The notes beneath the pieces were generated by a model. The model did no database searches. It was not told where the DNA came from and was given only the letters and a program-made list of their open reading frames with translations. A program made the translations under genes and the position numbers. Below are positions 13,064 to 21,373 of a stretch of DNA of 24,124 nucleotides, in pieces. The stretch is taken from the IMG/VR virus record IMGVR_UViG_3300020720_000022, positions 1-24,124 of that record, one strand, 5' to 3'. This DNA comes from a virus. The stretch's first letter is position 1. Each line of letters begins with the position of its first letter.

Positions 13064-14035
13064 ATGACCCAGCCAATTGACATAATTTCAGGCGCATTAA
13101 AAGATATTGGCGCTTTGGCTGGTGGTGAAGTTCCAACTGCTGAAGCCGTACAAGATGCTTTAAACATGATGAATGGCATGATTGACCAATGGTCTAATGA
13201 ATCCATGATGGTCAGCTATAAGACTGAAATCATATTTCCTATTACGCCAGGTCAAATTCAATACACCATAGGCCCTGGCGGCACAATTGGTTCAAACTTT
13301 ACTGGTTCTATTACAGGCAATGTTTTAACTGTTACTGGTATAACCCAAGGGGCATTAGCCCTAGGGCAAACATTAGCTGGAACGGGGATTGCAAATGGTA
13401 CAACGATTACTGCGTTTGGCACGGGTGCCGGTGGCAACGTTAATGACAATGGCACATACACCGTTAATATTTCTCAAACAGTTAGTTCAACATCCATTAA
13501 TGGCTACTACCAGCGCCCTCTTGCTATTCAGTCTAGCTTTGTGCGGATTAACACTAATTCTAATGGCACTCCTATTGTTAACGGGGGCCTTGACTACCCA
13601 GTTGCCGTACTCAATCTTGAAAATTATGAAATGATTGGTTTAAAGACTTTAGCCGGTCCTTGGCCAAAAGCAATGTATTACCAACCTTCCGACCCATTAG
13701 GTAACATTTTTGTATGGCCAAACCCTTCACAGGGCGAAATGCACATATTTGCAGATACGTTATTTACACGTTATGCCACCGCTTATGACAATATTGTTTT
13801 GCCACAAGGTTATGAATTATGTTTGCGTTGGTGCCTTGCTGAACGTTTAATGCCAATGTACGGCAAAAACGACCCGGCGGCATTAGCCATGATTGGAAAA
13901 TATTCTGCACAAGCTAAAGCCACATTAAAACGCACTAATATGCGCCCAATACAAGCTTCTGTATTTAGCGATGCTTTGTTAGTTGGACGTCAAAAAGATG
14001 CTGGATGGATATTAACTGGCGGTTTCTTAAGATAA
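13064..14035 (+). CDS. Head-tail connector, P22 gp4-like, with inserted beta module
   Basis: 323 residues. The start ([20 protein letters not shown], then a helix with [10 protein letters not shown]) and later [22 protein letters not shown] are typical of the P22 gp4 family, the first accessory ring under the portal. P22 gp4 has 166 residues. Much of the extra length is residues 79-146, a Thr/Gly-rich module ([13 protein letters not shown]...[16 protein letters not shown]) lying between YTIGPGG (68-73) and [13 protein letters not shown] (151-163), which in uninterrupted relatives are, as I recall, close together. The same module recurs in the next gene. The product should seal the portal and seat the gp10-like plug. 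The gp4 call rests on motifs and gene order. Confidence 0.83.
13298..13501 (+). repeat. Beta-rich module copy A, inside the gp4-like gene
   Basis: About 68 codons with the pattern GSI-x-GN-LTVT ... GQ-x-x-x-G-x-G-I/V ... GT-x-ITA-x-GTG ... GTYT-[IV]-NISQT. It contains a 19-base exact match (13319-13337) to copy C in the gp10-like gene (14679-14697), which indicates common origin at DNA level. Confidence 0.8.
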
Positions 14036-14045
14036 AAGGGGCTTT

Positions 14046-16160
14046 ATGCCGGATTTTGGATTTGTTGGCCCATCATACGAAGCCCCGTCCATCTACCAAG
14101 ATGCACAGGAATGTATAAATTTTTACCCTGAAATTGACCCATTAAAACAACCAGGTCAAAACGGGGTTGTAGCACTTTACCCAACGCCAGGACTTACTGT
14201 TGCCGCCCAAATGTTTAATTCTGCGGAAGTTCGTGGGATGCGTACTGTTTCCGGCGGTAATTATTGCGTAATAGTTTGTGGTCAATATGTTTACGTATTA
14301 AATTCCAGCCTTACTCCAAACCTTGTTGGAACACTTAATTCTAATTCGGGCATGGTTGGAATTACTGATAATGGTCAAAACGTTTACATTACAGACGGTT
14401 CTTACCGTTATACATGGCGCATTTCTAATCCATCTTCTGCCCAATTTGTAGGTTCAGTATCAGGAACAACTCTTACTGTAACTTTAATGAAATCAGGCAC
14501 TATTGCCGCTGGCCAACAATTATTTGGAATTGGCGTAACCCCTGAAACTATTATTACTGCTCTTGGCACCGGTACAGGCGGTACTGGTACTTATACAATT
14601 AACATTAGCCAAACCGAAGCTTCTGAAGTATTCAATTCTTCTGCGGTGGCCGCCAAAATAACTGGCTCTATTTCCGGTAATGTTTTAACTGTTACTGCCG
14701 TTGCTAATGGCACTTTATATCCAGGACAAACTATTCAAGGTTCAGGAGTAACTGCTGGAACGATTATTACGGCTTTAGGCGGTTCTGCGGCCATTAGTTA
14801 TAGCATTACGTCAGGCGGTACTGGTTATGCCGTAGGTGACACCGTTACAGTCGTTGGCGGCATATACAGTCAACAAGCAACTTATACAGTAGCAACAGTA
14901 GCGGCTGGAGTAGTAACTGGATTAACACCAGTAAGTTATGGCGTTTATACCGTCCAACCTGGAACACCAGCAACAACCACAACTAGCGGTAATGGTACAG
15001 GGTTAACCCTTACTTTAACTTTTGGTACTGGTACAGGGGGAACTGGAAGCTATGTTGTCAATGGAACACAAACCGTTGGTTCAGAAACTTTGTATGCGCT
15101 TAACTTTAGCGTTTTGCCATCTTCTGATGGCGGCTTTAGTGGTGCGGATGTTGTTGACATTGTTGATAACTATTTTGTATATAACAGGCCAAATACCCAA
15201 CAATGGGGTGCTTCAGGGATTCTTTCCCCAATAAGTCCACAATTAAGCTTTAGTTCAAAAGATGGCGCACCTGACAATTTAGTGTCAATTATTGTGGACC
15301 ACAGGGAAGTCTATTTATTAGGTGAAACGTCTAGCGAAGTATGGATTGATGCTGGATTATTTCCTTTTCCATTTCAACGGATTCCAGGAACCAATACCCA
15401 GCATGGTATTGCCGCCAAATTTAGCGTTGCAAGATTAGGTAATTCATTTGCTTACGTAAGCCGTAATATTCGTGGCCAAGCCCAAATTATGATGATGAAC
15501 GGCTATACACCAACTCGTATTAGCACCCATGCCGTAGAAAATACATTGGTTGACCAATATATATCTGATGCACGTGCTTGGACGTATCAATTAGAAGGCC
15601 ATGAAGTTTACGTTGTTAGCTTTCCAACAATTGATTTAACTTGGGCATATGACATTGCAACTGGAATGTGGCATAAATGGTTATCTGTTGACAATCAGAA
15701 CGTATTTCATCGTCATCGTGGTAATTGCCAAGCTAATTTTCAAAATATGAACTTGGTTGGTGATTATGCAAATGGACTTGTTTATCAATTAGATAAAAAA
15801 AATTACACCGACAATGGCAATGAAGTGCGCCGTATTCGCCGTGCGCCACACATGGTTAGTGATTATCAACGTCAATATTTTGATGAATTGCAAATTTATT
15901 TCCAACCAGGCGTAGGCCTTTCTAACGGCTTAACTGCCAATGAAAATCCACAAGCCATGCTTCGCTGGTCAGATGATGGCGGTTCTACATGGTCAAATGA
16001 GCATTGGACTTCTATTGGTACCCAAGGCGCTTATAAAAACCGTGCTATTTGGCGCAGAATGGGTTGGGCGCGTGACCGTGTATTTGAAGTTGTTGTTACC
16101 GACCCAATTAATGCGGTAATCATTGCCGCTAACCTTAAAGCTAGTGCTGGGAGCAACTAA
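14046..16160 (+). CDS. Tail hub/DNA stabilisation protein, P22 gp10-like, with inserted modules
   Basis: 704 residues; P22 gp10 has 472. The N-terminus (PSIYQDAQECINFYPEID, then YPTPGL and VRGMRTVSGG) and C-terminal half (HREVYLLGETSSEVWIDAG, QHGIAAKFSVARLGNSFAYV, and final KNRAIWRRMGWARDRVFEV) correspond along the length to P22 gp10. Residues about 133-350 are inserted: module B at 133-197, module C first part at 205-245, a different GGTGYAVGDTVTVVGG-type module at 246-326, and the end of C at 327-346. Removing them leaves about 486 residues, near the family length. The protein should plug the portal channel below the gp4-like ring. It starts ten bases after the gp4-like gene with AAAAGGGG as binding site. 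Confidence 0.85.
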   Translation: MPDFGFVGPSYEAPSIYQDAQECINFYPEIDPLKQPGQNGVVALYPTPGLTVAAQMFNSAEVRGMRTVSGGNYCVIVCGQYVYVLNSSLTPNLVGTLNSNSGMVGITDNGQNVYITDGSYRYTWRISNPSSAQFVGSVSGTTLTVTLMKSGTIAAGQQLFGIGVTPETIITALGTGTGGTGTYTINISQTEASEVFNSSAVAAKITGSISGNVLTVTAVANGTLYPGQTIQGSGVTAGTIITALGGSAAISYSITSGGTGYAVGDTVTVVGGIYSQQATYTVATVAAGVVTGLTPVSYGVYTVQPGTPATTTTSGNGTGLTLTLTFGTGTGGTGSYVVNGTQTVGSETLYALNFSVLPSSDGGFSGADVVDIVDNYFVYNRPNTQQWGASGILSPISPQLSFSSKDGAPDNLVSIIVDHREVYLLGETSSEVWIDAGLFPFPFQRIPGTNTQHGIAAKFSVARLGNSFAYVSRNIRGQAQIMMMNGYTPTRISTHAVENTLVDQYISDARAWTYQLEGHEVYVVSFPTIDLTWAYDIATGMWHKWLSVDNQNVFHRHRGNCQANFQNMNLVGDYANGLVYQLDKKNYTDNGNEVRRIRRAPHMVSDYQRQYFDELQIYFQPGVGLSNGLTANENPQAMLRWSDDGGSTWSNEHWTSIGTQGAYKNRAIWRRMGWARDRVFEVVVTDPINAVIIAANLKASAGSN
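14442..14636 (+). repeat. Beta-rich module copy B, inside the gp10-like gene
   Basis: About 65 codons (residues 133-197): GSVSGTTLTVT ... AAGQQLFGIGV ... TIITALGTGTGGTGTYTINI. It is the same module as copies A and C, uninterrupted. Confidence 0.78.
14658..15083 (+). repeat. Beta-rich module copy C, split by a second module
   Basis: Residues 205-245 give the first part (GSISGNVLTVT ... GTIITALG). Residues 246-326 are a different module (SGGTGYAVGDTVTVVGG ... LTLTLT). Residues 327-346 (FGTGTGGTGSYVVNGTQTVG) resume the end of the first module. Bases 14781-15023 are the nested part. Confidence 0.68.
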
Positions 16161-16402
16161 TGGCCAGTAATAATGGAATTTGGACTAGCAGTCAAAATAA
16201 TCCTTATCCACAATCCCCAATTATGGATGAACAAACCAAGCGACCTACCCGTGCTTGGCAACAATATTTTTTAAATCTGCTAAACTTTTCTTCAGCTACA
16301 ACGGCTACAAAAGGTTCTGCAACATTGCCTTCAAACCCAGTAGGATTTATTAATGTAACTGTCAATGGTCAATCTTTTAAAGTGCCTTATTACAATCCAT
16401 GA
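16160..16402 (+). CDS. Small conserved protein in the tail-needle position
   Basis: 80 residues, starting in a TAATG overlap with the gp10-like gene. RPTRAWQQYFLNLLNF (28-43) and NPVGFINVTVNGQSFKVPYY (59-78) resemble a small protein seen near connector genes in other podoviruses. The middle is Ala/Thr rich. In P22 the next gene after gp10 encodes the tail needle gp26 (233 residues, coiled coil). This one is far too short and has no heptad repeat, so it is not a needle. It is probably a structural or connector-associated protein. Confidence 0.72.
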   Translation: MASNNGIWTSSQNNPYPQSPIMDEQTKRPTRAWQQYFLNLLNFSSATTATKGSATLPSNPVGFINVTVNGQSFKVPYYNP

Positions 16403-17262
16403 ACCTAGTTTACGTAAAACCTTCTAAACAGTTATCAGTTAAGTCGCAAATAGAAAATTTGCAAAACGAACTGTTAAAAATGCCCCAATCGGACATTGTG
16501 ACGGAGCATACCTTTTATCCAGGGTTTTATGAACGCAAAATAACTATTCCGGCATGGACTGTATTAACTGGCGCAGAACATAAAACAGGCTACACCGTTC
16601 GCCTAGAAAAAGGCACTATTGCGGTAAACGTAGAAGATTCAGTCAAAATATTGACTGCTCCAATGCAGTTTGAATCAAAGCCTGGCGCCCAACGTGTAGG
16701 CCGTGTATTTGATGAAGAAGTTGTTTGGATTGATGTTTATGAAAACCCTGACAATTGCCAAGATTTAGACGTATTGGAAGAACGTTTGTTTGTTGTTCCT
16801 GAATGTGGATTACAAGATAATAGACTTAAAAAAGAAATTAAAGAAGTTCATGAAGATTACAAGCTTTTTTGTAAAGAATTAGGCCTAAATCAAGAAGAAA
16901 TTGATAAAATAGTATTAATCAAACATGATTTGATGGAAATGCCAATTGAATATGCAACAGAATTACGGCCATCCAAAATTCATGGTAAAGGTTTATTTGC
17001 AACAAAAAGTTTTAAAATGTGGGATGTAGTTTGCCCATGTAGATTAGACGGAAAACGAACACCAGGCGGTAGATATATCAATCATTCGCATAAACAGAAT
17101 CTTATGCCAGTAAAAATTGGCGATGATATTTATGCGATTGCTTGTAAAGATATTTATCAAAATGAGGAATTATTGTTAGATTACCGTTCTATGGTTCGCG
17201 TTAATTTTGGTATTAATTTAAGAGGGGAACTTCCATGTCAGCCGGTGTATCAAGCACAGTAA
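16399..17262 (+). CDS. Cupin-like plus SET-domain protein (putative lysine methyltransferase)
   Basis: 287 residues, ATGA overlap with the preceding gene. Residues about 33-133 form a cupin-like jelly roll (YERKITIPAWTVLTGAEHKT, RLEKGTIAV, VGRVFDEEVVWIDVY) of a type common as a stand-alone phage protein. A charged helical linker (136-180) follows. Residues 184-270 read as a compact SET domain: IHGKGLFATKSF (194-205), GRYINHSHKQNL (224-235), which matches the R-x-x-N-H-S-x-x-x-N cofactor-binding motif, and NEELLLDYR (255-263), the E-E-L-x-x-D-Y catalytic motif. Only about 15 residues separate the first two motifs, so the usual SET insert is missing. It may methylate lysines on a phage or host protein using SAM; the target and activity are unknown. 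It sits among virion genes and overlaps the next by 28 bases. Confidence 0.8.
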   Translation: MNLVYVKPSKQLSVKSQIENLQNELLKMPQSDIVTEHTFYPGFYERKITIPAWTVLTGAEHKTGYTVRLEKGTIAVNVEDSVKILTAPMQFESKPGAQRVGRVFDEEVVWIDVYENPDNCQDLDVLEERLFVVPECGLQDNRLKKEIKEVHEDYKLFCKELGLNQEEIDKIVLIKHDLMEMPIEYATELRPSKIHGKGLFATKSFKMWDVVCPCRLDGKRTPGGRYINHSHKQNLMPVKIGDDIYAIACKDIYQNEELLLDYRSMVRVNFGINLRGELPCQPVYQAQ

Positions 17263-17969
17263 TAGCTGGAACAGTCATTGGCGGTGCCATGCTTGGTTCT
17301 GCTTATATGCAGTCACAAGCCGCTGGAAATGCCGCTAGTCAATATGCTAATGCCGCTAATCAAGGCATTAATTATAGCCAAGGCATTTACAATGATATTA
17401 AAGGAATGGCACAACCATATATGAATACTGGCACACAAGCCAATTATGGTTTAAATGCTATGTTGCCTGGCCAATATACAGATGCCAACGGAAATATTCA
17501 AACTGGTAGCGGTTATTTAACTGCCCAGCCAACAATGAATGATTTGACCAGTTTGATGCCAAATTATAAATTTGGATTAACGCAAGGATTGGGTCAATTT
17601 AATGCCGGTTTAAATGCCGGTGGTGGCGCAGTAAGCGGCAATGCTATTCAAGGTGGCCAACAATTTGCCCAAGATTATGCCGGAAATCAATTGCAAAACG
17701 CATATAGTAACTACCAAGCAAATCGTCAAAACGTTGCCAGCAACATATTTAACGCTAATAACGTAGGCATGAACGCCCTTGGTACAGTATCAAATGCTGG
17801 TACTGGAACTGCTTCTAACGTATCTAATATGTTATCTAGCATCGGTAATGCTCAAGCTTCTGCAACTATGGGTTCTGCTAATGCTTATGCAAATGGTTTA
17901 AGCGGTATTAGCAATTACGCTATGTTGTATGGCTTAAACAAAATGAACGCGCCAACTCCACCGGGCTAA
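17235..17969 (+). CDS. DNA-ejection protein, P22 gp7-like by position and type
   Basis: 244 residues (P22 gp7 has 229). The N-terminus STVIAGTVIGGAMLGSAYMQ is a Gly/Ala-rich hydrophobic helix able to insert into membrane. Ala/Gln/Asn-rich helical sequence follows, with MAQPYMNTG, YKFGLTQGLGQFNAGLNAGG and QDYAGNQLQNAYSNYQANRQ, a pattern typical of phage ejection proteins. AGAGGGG precedes the ATG, which lies inside the end of the cupin-SET gene. It should be packed in the head and released into the cell envelope at infection to help make a DNA conduit with the next two products. Confidence 0.8.
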   Translation: MSAGVSSTVIAGTVIGGAMLGSAYMQSQAAGNAASQYANAANQGINYSQGIYNDIKGMAQPYMNTGTQANYGLNAMLPGQYTDANGNIQTGSGYLTAQPTMNDLTSLMPNYKFGLTQGLGQFNAGLNAGGGAVSGNAIQGGQQFAQDYAGNQLQNAYSNYQANRQNVASNIFNANNVGMNALGTVSNAGTGTASNVSNMLSSIGNAQASATMGSANAYANGLSGISNYAMLYGLNKMNAPTPPG

Positions 17970-17981
17970 TAGGAAACAATT

Positions 17982-19415
17982 ATGGCTGAATTTACTGCGG
18001 ATTTAAACCCAAAAAATACTAATCAAATGACCCTTGGGGATATGATGAAAGTAGGCCTTTATTCGGCCGAAACTGCTATTGCACAACGTCAAGCGCAAAT
18101 GGCAGAACAAAAAACCAAAGAAATGCCAATTATTCAGCAATGGGCAAAAGACCCAGCAAATAAGCTTCCTGATGGTTCTTTTGATTTGGAACAAGTTCCA
18201 GCATTAATTTCAGTAGCCCCAATGTCCGGTCCTGAATATGCAGACAAAATCATTACCTTAACTAAAAACCATATTGAAACCAATAAAGCTTTAAATGAAC
18301 TTTCAGAAAGCAATAGAAAGCCTTTTGCTTCCGTTTATGGTTCTTATGGACAAATGGCCGCAAATGGCCAAAAAGTTAACCCAACAGACATTATCAATTC
18401 TTTGGAAACTTTAAAACAATACTATCCACAATTAACAAAAGCGGCAGATGGTCAAATTAAAGGTTGGAAAGCTTATCCGTCAGACCATCCAGTTGACCCA
18501 CAGTCCTTGTTAAAAGCACGTAATGAATCATTAACACCAACACAGTTAATTGACCAATTTGCACCTAAAGCTGAAACCGCTACTATTGGTGGCGCACAAC
18601 GCCCAGTTGTACGTCAACCTTCTATGACCGGCGAACAACCTAAAATTACTCCGGTTGAATTTGGTGGCGGTCAAAATGCCGTTGGTGGTGGCGGCACAAC
18701 TGAAGCGCCTAAACCAAGTGCTAAAGACCGTGACCTTATTAAGTATGACCAATATCTTGATTACAAAGGCAATCCAGCCCTTGCAAACTACACAACAGAG
18801 CAAAAAGAAGCTTTGGATAACGGTAAAAACTTGCTTAAAGAAAGCAATGCACTTGCTTCTGCCGCTAAAGAACAAGAAGCTAATACACGTGGCGTTATAG
18901 AAAATATTTCTGCCGCTTCAGGAAACCGCCCAGGTCAATTGTTACGTCAAGGTGGAAAATACATTATTGGCAATGCAACACAAGAAATGTTGAATAAAAA
19001 CATTGCACGTATGGCCGCGGCTTCTGAAGTTATGGGAACTGCTAAAACTGACCAATCCCGTGCAGATGCCAAAGTTATTAATGGTAGCGATGATTTAACC
19101 GCACAAGCATTAACTGATATTGTTTCCCGTGCAGATGCTACTGTTAAGGCCGCTACTATGTTTAATAGCGCCTACAACAAACTTATTGAAAAACGTGGTA
19201 TCAATGGCTACATTCAAGCAGAAAAATTTAAATCTGCTTGGGTTGATAACTATGACGTTCGTATGGCTCAAATTGAAGCTTTAGCCGCTTCTAATTCGCC
19301 TGAAGCAAAAATTAAAGCAAACGAAATTTACGCTACTGTTCCTAAAAACCAACGTGACGAATTTAATCGTAAATGGGATAATCTTCATGCTTTAGAACAA
19401 GGAAAGTTTAGATAA
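17982..19415 (+). CDS. DNA-ejection protein, P22 gp20-like by position
   Basis: 477 residues (P22 gp20 has 471). Apart from the first 27 residues, shared with the small protein at 402-629, no motif is recognisable. The protein is largely helical and Gln/Ala/Lys rich. A Gly/Pro-rich hinge at about 200-245 (FGGGQNAVGGGGTTEAPKPS) separates two helical halves; the C-terminal half has repeated Ala-rich helices (IARMAAASEVMGTAK). There is no membrane segment. The AGGAAA site is eight bases before the ATG, and the stop overlaps the next start by one base. It is assigned to the ejection set by order between gp7-like and M15-bearing proteins; sequence evidence for gp20 itself is weak. Confidence 0.72.
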   Translation: MAEFTADLNPKNTNQMTLGDMMKVGLYSAETAIAQRQAQMAEQKTKEMPIIQQWAKDPANKLPDGSFDLEQVPALISVAPMSGPEYADKIITLTKNHIETNKALNELSESNRKPFASVYGSYGQMAANGQKVNPTDIINSLETLKQYYPQLTKAADGQIKGWKAYPSDHPVDPQSLLKARNESLTPTQLIDQFAPKAETATIGGAQRPVVRQPSMTGEQPKITPVEFGGGQNAVGGGGTTEAPKPSAKDRDLIKYDQYLDYKGNPALANYTTEQKEALDNGKNLLKESNALASAAKEQEANTRGVIENISAASGNRPGQLLRQGGKYIIGNATQEMLNKNIARMAAASEVMGTAKTDQSRADAKVINGSDDLTAQALTDIVSRADATVKAATMFNSAYNKLIEKRGINGYIQAEKFKSAWVDNYDVRMAQIEALAASNSPEAKIKANEIYATVPKNQRDEFNRKWDNLHALEQGKFR

Positions 19416-21373
19416 TGTCAGACGATATTGATAATCCTGGTTTAAAGTTTTTAGGTGTTGATACCATACCTTCAGTTAGTGTAAGCGTAGGTGCGCCAAG
19501 CATTTATGACAATGCAAAACCAATATCTAATACTAAAGCGCCGGTTGATACTGAAAATCTACAACCGGATTTACTTGACCGAGTAAATCAACTTAAAGAC
19601 CTTTGGAAAAGCAATAAAGAATTAAATCCTAAAGGCGAAGATTTGCCTATTACTAGCGGTTACAGAACCCTAGAACAACAACGTGAAGAATATAAGAACC
19701 GTTTAAAAAACCCTAATTTAGTAGCTGAACCAGGTACAAGCCGCCATGAAAAAGGCGATGCAATTGACATTCATCCACGTGTCCCTGATTCATTATTGGC
19801 ACAAGTAGGCTTACATCGTCCATTTGGTGCTAAAGACCCAGTTCACGTACAAATTAACCCTGATTTGCCATACGAATCTAATGTAGAACCAAATACCGAT
19901 AATGACATTGAAAATTCAGGATTAAAGTTTATTGACCAAAATTACGAAAAACCTAAAAATTGGCTTGAAGAATTTAAAAAACCATTGCATGAAATGTCAA
20001 TGGAAGATTGGAAACAAAAAAGTTTAGCCGCACCGATAATAGCTTATACCGCTGGCAGTATGCCGATAATTGGCGATGAAGCTATGAAAAAAGAAGCTGA
20101 AGCCAATTTGCTTGCAAAATACGAATCTGCTAAACAAGGCCTTAAATCTTTTGCAGAACATCCTGGTGAATCTATTTCTAATATTGCCAAAAATATTTAT
20201 GAGAATCCTGGACGTTTTGCTGGCGAAACGCTTAAAGGCGCAATCTATGACCCTGAATTTGCAGTCAGAACACCATTAGGTAGCATGGTTGCAAAAACTG
20301 CTGAAAAAACTGGCAATGCAATATCTAGCATTGGTGGTGCAGTTGGCCGAAATGTAAAAGCCGGAACCATTGGAAATATTGCAACTGATGTAATGGGTAT
20401 TCCTATTGATAAAAGCGGTGAAGTATTGCGTGAAGCCGCACGTTCAGGTTATGCCAATCCACGTACAGTTTCAGAACTTGCTGAAAATATGCGCGGCAAT
20501 AGGTCGCCGGCTGATTTGGTTGAACAATTCCGTTCTGCTTTGGAAAACACACGTCATGCACGTAGCGAAGCTTATAAACAAGGTATTGCAACTACCAAAG
20601 ACAATCAAGTATTTTTGGACTTTAAACCAATACGTAAAGCTTTTGATGAAACACTTGAATCTTTAAAATCTAAAAATCTTGGTGTTGAAACTCCAAAAGT
20701 TACTGAAAAAACAATGTCCAAAGTTAACGAAATTAAAAAAATTTTGGACGAATGGGAAAGCAAACCCGAACTTCATACTGCTGGCAATTTAGATGATTTA
20801 AAACAACTTATTGATGATACTTATTCAAATGACATGACGGCAAATGCTAAACGTATCATGACAAATACTCGTAATGCCGTAAAAGATACCATTGTTAAAC
20901 AAGACCCAAATTACGAAAAAACAATGGCTGAATATCAAGAAGCTTTAAATACCGAACGTGAAATTGAGAAATCTTTAGGTCTTGGTCCAAAAGCTTCTGT
21001 TGACCTTACATTGCGCCGCCTTAAAACCATGATGGGTCCAACATCCACTATGGGTAATGAATTTAGACGTGAATTAACACGTCAATTGGAAGAATCAGGC
21101 AATAAAAACTTAATGGAAGCATTAGCTGGTCAATCATTAAAAGAATGGCACCCATCCGGTTTAGCTGGTCCAGCATTAGGAATGAACGCTTTATATACTG
21201 GTGGTCGTGTTTTCTCAGGTGATTTAACGCCATTATCAGGGTTGGCACTTCCATTCCAAAGCCCACGTGTAATGGGCGAATTAATGTATAAAGGTGGCCA
21301 AGTTGCTAGAAAAGCAGTTGAAGCCAAACAAGCCGCAAAAACAAAATTAAGTGAAATAACTTCTAGGAAATAA
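19415..21373 (+). CDS. Ejection protein with N-terminal M15 peptidoglycan peptidase domain
   Basis: 652 residues (P22 gp16 has 609). Residues about 50-150 form a VanY/M15-type zinc peptidase: SGYRTLEQQ (81-89), SRHEKGDAIDIH (109-120) matching S-x-H-x-x-G-x-A-x-D, and DPVHVQI (141-147), giving zinc ligands H111, D118 and H144. The rest (about 170-652) is helical, with a Gly-rich stretch (SSIGGAVGRNVKAGTIGN) and coiled-coil segments, as expected for an ejection protein. DIDNPGLKF (5-13, with Asp4 before it) recurs as DIENSGLKF (164-172), bracketing the peptidase. It probably cleaves peptide cross-links so the ejection conduit can cross the cell wall. Starts in a TAATG overlap. Confidence 0.84.
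   Translation: MSDDIDNPGLKFLGVDTIPSVSVSVGAPSIYDNAKPISNTKAPVDTENLQPDLLDRVNQLKDLWKSNKELNPKGEDLPITSGYRTLEQQREEYKNRLKNPNLVAEPGTSRHEKGDAIDIHPRVPDSLLAQVGLHRPFGAKDPVHVQINPDLPYESNVEPNTDNDIENSGLKFIDQNYEKPKNWLEEFKKPLHEMSMEDWKQKSLAAPIIAYTAGSMPIIGDEAMKKEAEANLLAKYESAKQGLKSFAEHPGESISNIAKNIYENPGRFAGETLKGAIYDPEFAVRTPLGSMVAKTAEKTGNAISSIGGAVGRNVKAGTIGNIATDVMGIPIDKSGEVLREAARSGYANPRTVSELAENMRGNRSPADLVEQFRSALENTRHARSEAYKQGIATTKDNQVFLDFKPIRKAFDETLESLKSKNLGVETPKVTEKTMSKVNEIKKILDEWESKPELHTAGNLDDLKQLIDDTYSNDMTANAKRIMTNTRNAVKDTIVKQDPNYEKTMAEYQEALNTEREIEKSLGLGPKASVDLTLRRLKTMMGPTSTMGNEFRRELTRQLEESGNKNLMEALAGQSLKEWHPSGLAGPALGMNALYTGGRVFSGDLTPLSGLALPFQSPRVMGELMYKGGQVARKAVEAKQAAKTKLSEITSRK

Follow-up and report, generated by a model that had tools for sequence, protein, structure and literature searches.

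A cupin–SET fusion encoded among the virion genes of short-tailed phages is a candidate protein-lysine methyltransferase

SET is a fold of lysine-methylating enzymes, known chiefly from the modification of histones. The present analysis describes a phage protein in which a compact SET domain is joined to a cupin, encoded in a 24,124-nucleotide stretch of viral DNA (hereafter the window, meaning the whole stretch). We propose that this protein is a phage protein-lysine methyltransferase, in which a minimal SET domain is tethered to the cupin of a tail or ejection gene set, and we assign this reading a probability of roughly 0.6. The fusion itself had been suggested in a preliminary description made from the letters of the DNA, and the Pfam SET match and the models of both halves now substantiate it.

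Results

The cupin–SET gene and its neighbours

The window is a 24-kb virus record that encodes a P22-type portal, a terminase, a major head protein and a gp10-like closure protein (Pfam and PHROG matches); the virus is a short-tailed, freshwater-type phage. The features considered here are the following.

14046..16160, + strand: gp10-like head-closure protein, upstream of the cupin–SET gene (phrog_578, 3e-99)
16160..16402, + strand: 80-aa ORF with a 4-bp overlap with the cupin–SET start (ORF call)
16399..17262, + strand: cupin–SET fusion protein, 287 aa, ATG start
16498..16746, + strand: cupin (RmlC-like) beta-barrel, residues 34–116 (AF2 model, PHROG)
16813..16953, + strand: helical linker, residues 139–185 (ending DLMEMP; helices in the models)
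16954..17208, + strand: compact SET domain without SET-I, residues 186–270 (Pfam, AF2, Foldseek to MLL1, SET8 and vSET)
16984..17001, + strand: SET motif GKGLFA, the SAM-site GxG, residues 196–201 (sequence)
17071..17088, + strand: SET motif RYINHS, with the SAM-site Asn-His at residues 228–229 (sequence)
17164..17184, + strand: SET motif EELLLDY, residues 256–262, with the catalytic Tyr262 (sequence)
17235..17969, + strand: DNA-ejection protein, downstream, its ATG 28 bp inside the cupin–SET gene (phrog_598, 2.5e-13)

The gene overlaps its neighbours on both sides, as had been described, by 4 bp upstream and 28 bp downstream, and the downstream arrangement is widespread, an ejection-type gene overlapping the cupin–SET gene in 87 of 94 loci. 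The recurring order in annotated phages, with small variations, is gp10-like gene, small ORF, cupin–SET gene and ejection-region gene, and the gp10-like and ejection neighbours recur in isolates and environmental phages alike. The placement among virion genes noted at the outset is thus a conserved one. The small 80-aa ORF gave no convincing family match in Pfam and PHROG searches. Many relatives share a conserved Cys-Gln at the C-terminus; it coincides with ATGTCA, where the next, overlapping gene begins (window 17235–17262), and its conservation may be caused by the overlap constraint rather than by protein function.

The cupin–SET ORF matches the uncharacterised family phrog_34170 over its full length (E=3e-34), and an NCBIfam search with the protein returned 0 matches. 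phrog_34170 has no assigned function, and its entry does not mention SET. Both SET and cupin are established families; their fusion is catalogued only as this nameless PHROG.

Several other features of the window deserve mention. A phage-encoded GroES-like co-chaperonin lies at 698–1048 (Pfam Cpn10, 8e-12). The 75-aa ORF at 402–629 resembles the N-terminus of the 477-aa protein at 17982–19415, which sits downstream of the ejection gene (47% over 49 aa, E=3e-10), and by this likeness it looks as if it were a partial duplicate. The adaptor-like protein (13064–14035) and the gp10-like protein have in common a glycine/threonine-rich insert (TGSISGNVLTVT...), which is present in at least two copies in gp10 and also occurs in tail fiber PHROGs. 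The large ejection-region protein at 19415–21373 carries a VanY-type peptidase domain near its N-terminus (Pfam).

Distribution of the fusion

Relatives of the cupin–SET protein are encoded in five distinct phage records (P26218, zth2-2, PH1, ct1fd225 and ctfPj964), in at least 584 IMG/VR loci, and in 14 loci from assemblies of bacteria or archaea, most of which are MAG contigs and possibly phage. A scan with the cupins of Vibrio/Shewanella-type phages revealed SET fusions in 18 of 80 loci. The preliminary view that SET domains are uncommon in phages is therefore wrong for this podovirus group. As the nearest relatives include those in Rhodoferax phage P26218 and in a Burkholderiales MAG contig (L173; 65% identity), we infer that a freshwater Burkholderiales host is plausible for the window phage.

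Fold and motifs of the SET half

The motifs read from the sequence, GKGLFA, NHS-x-x-x-N (NHSHKQN at residues 228–234) and EELLLDY, are all present at the positions described. The Pfam SET match has an E-value of 1.6e-7, above the curated cut-off, and covers residues 223–262 only. A value this modest, over so short a segment, could be taken as a chance or annotation artefact, that is, as weak motif matches in an ordinary tail protein. However, this explanation is refuted by independent profile, fold and conservation evidence, including a confident SET model and hundreds of relatives, and we consider its probability negligible. Structure prediction, which had been recommended for this protein, revealed a confident SET fold: the SET module alone (residues 142–287, 41 relatives) was modelled by AF2 with a pLDDT of 90 and a pTM of 0.82. 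All 50 listed PDB matches to this model are SET or PR domains (MLL1, SET8, EZH2 and vSET among them), and among viral models an uncultured Caudovirales SET protein comes nearest (E=4.5e-13). The SET domains of MLL1/KMT2 and SET8/KMT5A are the best sequence and fold matches. The vSET of PBCV-1, an algal virus H3K27 methyltransferase of 119 aa, is a small viral SET with the same motif set and is also matched in fold (3kma, TM 0.64 by target length).

The residues expected at an active site are well preserved. About 119 of the 122 distinct SET segments retain GxG, Asn-His and the catalytic Tyr, and 118 passed all three motif tests. Among the four that failed the pattern, one has an intact Asn-His after all (L332), one has Gln in place of His (L182) and two have an altered GxG (L320 and L327). 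A loss of Asn-His in all homologues, which would have spoken against the SET assignment, was looked for, and the pair is instead kept in nearly all of them. The segments were partly retrieved by a motif around RTxxGRxxN, so that conservation is biased there; GxG was in no search pattern. Tyr262 is invariant in the alignment of relatives and present in 122 of 122 segments, which were selected for such a Tyr. The residues conserved in, and special to, the cupin–SET family include R215, R220 and T221.

A SET domain without SET-I

SET-I normally forms one wall of the peptide cleft and is variable in size. By alignment count, 30 residues separate the second Gly of GxG from the Asn of NHS in the window protein, as compared with 64 in MLL1, in agreement with the earlier remark that an insert between the first two motifs is absent. 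This spacing is 30–31 residues in all 119 measurable SET segments, and thus about 34 residues, corresponding to SET-I, are missing throughout the family. On the evidence of the alignments, the absence of SET-I is a constant family trait and not damage. The phage domain also differs from those of MLL1/KMT2 and SET8/KMT5A in having no recognisable post-SET. Moreover, in a manual comparison, two of the three lysine-channel tyrosines of SET7/9 presumably have no counterpart in the phage SET.

The missing SET-I and the seemingly incomplete lysine channel, the location of the gene among virion genes, and the few relatives with an altered GxG or His would all suit another explanation, in which the SET half is not an enzyme but an inactive SET-like beta-clip, retained in the tail for a binding or structural role. 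However, the near-invariance of GxG, NH and Tyr at an overall identity of only about 30% among relatives is the pattern expected of an active site. The repeated loss of the SET domain and its occurrence alone, described below, also fit an optional enzyme better. We therefore regard an inactive domain as improbable.

The cupin half

In an AlphaFold model built on 52 relatives, the mean pLDDT is 82.8, and most of the PDB matches listed for it are cupins, TM1459 for example (Foldseek, E 1.5e-6); the N-terminal beta-barrel thus resembles PDB cupins at E-values of about 1e-6. Pfam gave no useful match on this half. The N-terminal half is similar to phage families labelled as short tail fiber or adhesin (phrog_12032 'short tail fiber protein', 1.8e-21), although 'short tail fiber' is a name from annotation only. 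The homologous cupins of phrog_12032 and phrog_24280 ('short tail fiber protein' and 'tail fiber adhesin'; VPMS1, VvAW1 and BPP-1 bbp23) stand in a comparable neighbourhood but carry no SET. Of the cupin metal motifs (HxH...E and H), direct reading found H61 alone in motif 1; motif 2 lacks His, and H61 is not conserved in distant relatives. Since the usual metal ligands are absent, a docking or structural domain is probable, and the sequence suggests that the cupin is structural, not catalytic.

Selection, loss and modularity of the SET half

The dN/dS ratio is about 0.08–0.11 for the SET half and 0.05–0.10 for the cupin half. Purifying selection is as strong on the SET as on the cupin, which argues against a decaying domain. 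On the other hand, of 79 cupin genes 17 have no SET, which requires five changes on the tree, at least three of which are forced by well-supported branches. Some SET-less genes (L010–L012) retain merely a short tail, one (L143) retains remnants without GxG or NHS, and the 35-kb record of one such phage (L011) contains no other SET. Given that the SET has been lost repeatedly while the cupin stays, it is dispensable, an accessory enzyme and not a structural necessity.

The SET can also be found apart from the cupin. In a prophage-like region of Paraburkholderia ferrariae (L181), cupin and SET are two genes with a 4-bp overlap, and SETs that stand alone but keep the helical linker are found elsewhere (L185, L186; Comamonadaceae and Rhodocyclales assemblies). 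The shared linker indicates that linker and SET form one module, and the split genes and stand-alone SETs together indicate that this module is able to act alone. A further stand-alone candidate, in DSS3phi2, was discarded as a weak match (E=3). Exchange of the module, sought as a lower synonymous divergence in the SET than in the cupin, was not significant (16 of 24 independent pairs, p=0.15).

Cupin genes next to GNAT acetyltransferases

The SET-less cupin of BPP-1, bbp23, is homologous to the window cupin (hhalign 98.4%, E=9e-15) and its gene overlaps bbp24, which encodes a GNAT acetyltransferase, at the 3' end of the latter. BPP-1-like phages have the GNAT gene directly upstream of the cupin, and a GNAT gene overlapping a SET-less cupin is also found in ctQRb9 and in Acinetobacter prophages. 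In total, 25 of 66 representative upstream neighbours of cupin genes match the GNAT family. Instances in which the GNAT gene overlaps the start of a SET-less cupin include L241 (4507–5426), L248 (2412–3360) and L253–L269. Compared pairwise, the two GNAT groups showed no recognisable similarity (E=0.66). The cupin is thus repeatedly paired with group-transfer enzymes, either SET or GNAT, and the recurrence of the cupin–GNAT adjacency is suggestive, though no proof, of a cupin that acts jointly with an amine-modifying enzyme.

Discussion

Our analyses can provide insights into how such a protein may work. The cupin, the constant part, is probably what attaches the protein to the tail or ejection complex. 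The SET, the optional enzyme, would use SAM through GxG, Asn-His and Tyr262 and methylate lysines on any partner kept close by the cupin. With SET-I missing, the substrate is probably selected through the cupin, the helical linker or a partner protein.

The likeliest target would be a virion or ejection protein modified in late assembly, although we place this at somewhat below even odds; it is favoured by the late-gene position and the overlap with the ejection gene. Lysines in neighbouring virion proteins do not clearly track SET presence, in a comparison confounded by kinship. The few that do are in two large ejection-region proteins, for which the few SET-less rows come from one clade. Only slightly less likely as a target is a host protein, encountered in the cytoplasm or following injection.

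The more specific proposal that a cytoplasmic late-infection enzyme, or an injected one, methylates a host protein of the nucleoid, of translation or of defence to favour the phage, as vSET does with histone H3, has several points in its favour. The vSET of PBCV-1, the smallest histone methyltransferase, is carried in the virion and has been linked to the shut-off of host transcription (PMC7019647), and by analogy it offers a precedent for an enzyme that is delivered. In archaea, a SET protein methylates MC1-alpha, which binds DNA (PMC3980110), and the repeated loss of the phage SET would fit a host-specific advantage. Unlike the phage SET, however, vSET is a free protein, and the phage infects bacteria, which leaves no histone target. 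That the SET is fused or adjacent to a tail-type cupin, and encoded among late genes, points instead to a virion-linked target, and we consider the host-directed proposal rather unlikely.

On a larger scale, and only tentatively, the cupin genes may represent a widespread phage system in which a tail-type cupin recruits exchangeable protein-modifying enzymes, SET by fusion or adjacency and GNAT by adjacency. These would modify lysines or amino termini of the tail or ejection machinery, or of the proteins it delivers, with the SET working without SET-I.

Our search, which covered few subscription journals, found no literature on phage SET or cupin–SET proteins, and no virion mass spectrometry of the cupin–SET protein was found in the literature searched. 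Isolates such as Rhodoferax phage P26218 and Pseudoalteromonas phage PH1, together with the phages that have naturally lost the SET, make direct tests possible. If active, the protein would be a minimal SET methyltransferase, with a core smaller than that of vSET, and would show which parts of the fold suffice for catalysis. It would also extend protein-lysine methylation to short-tailed phages of a common group.
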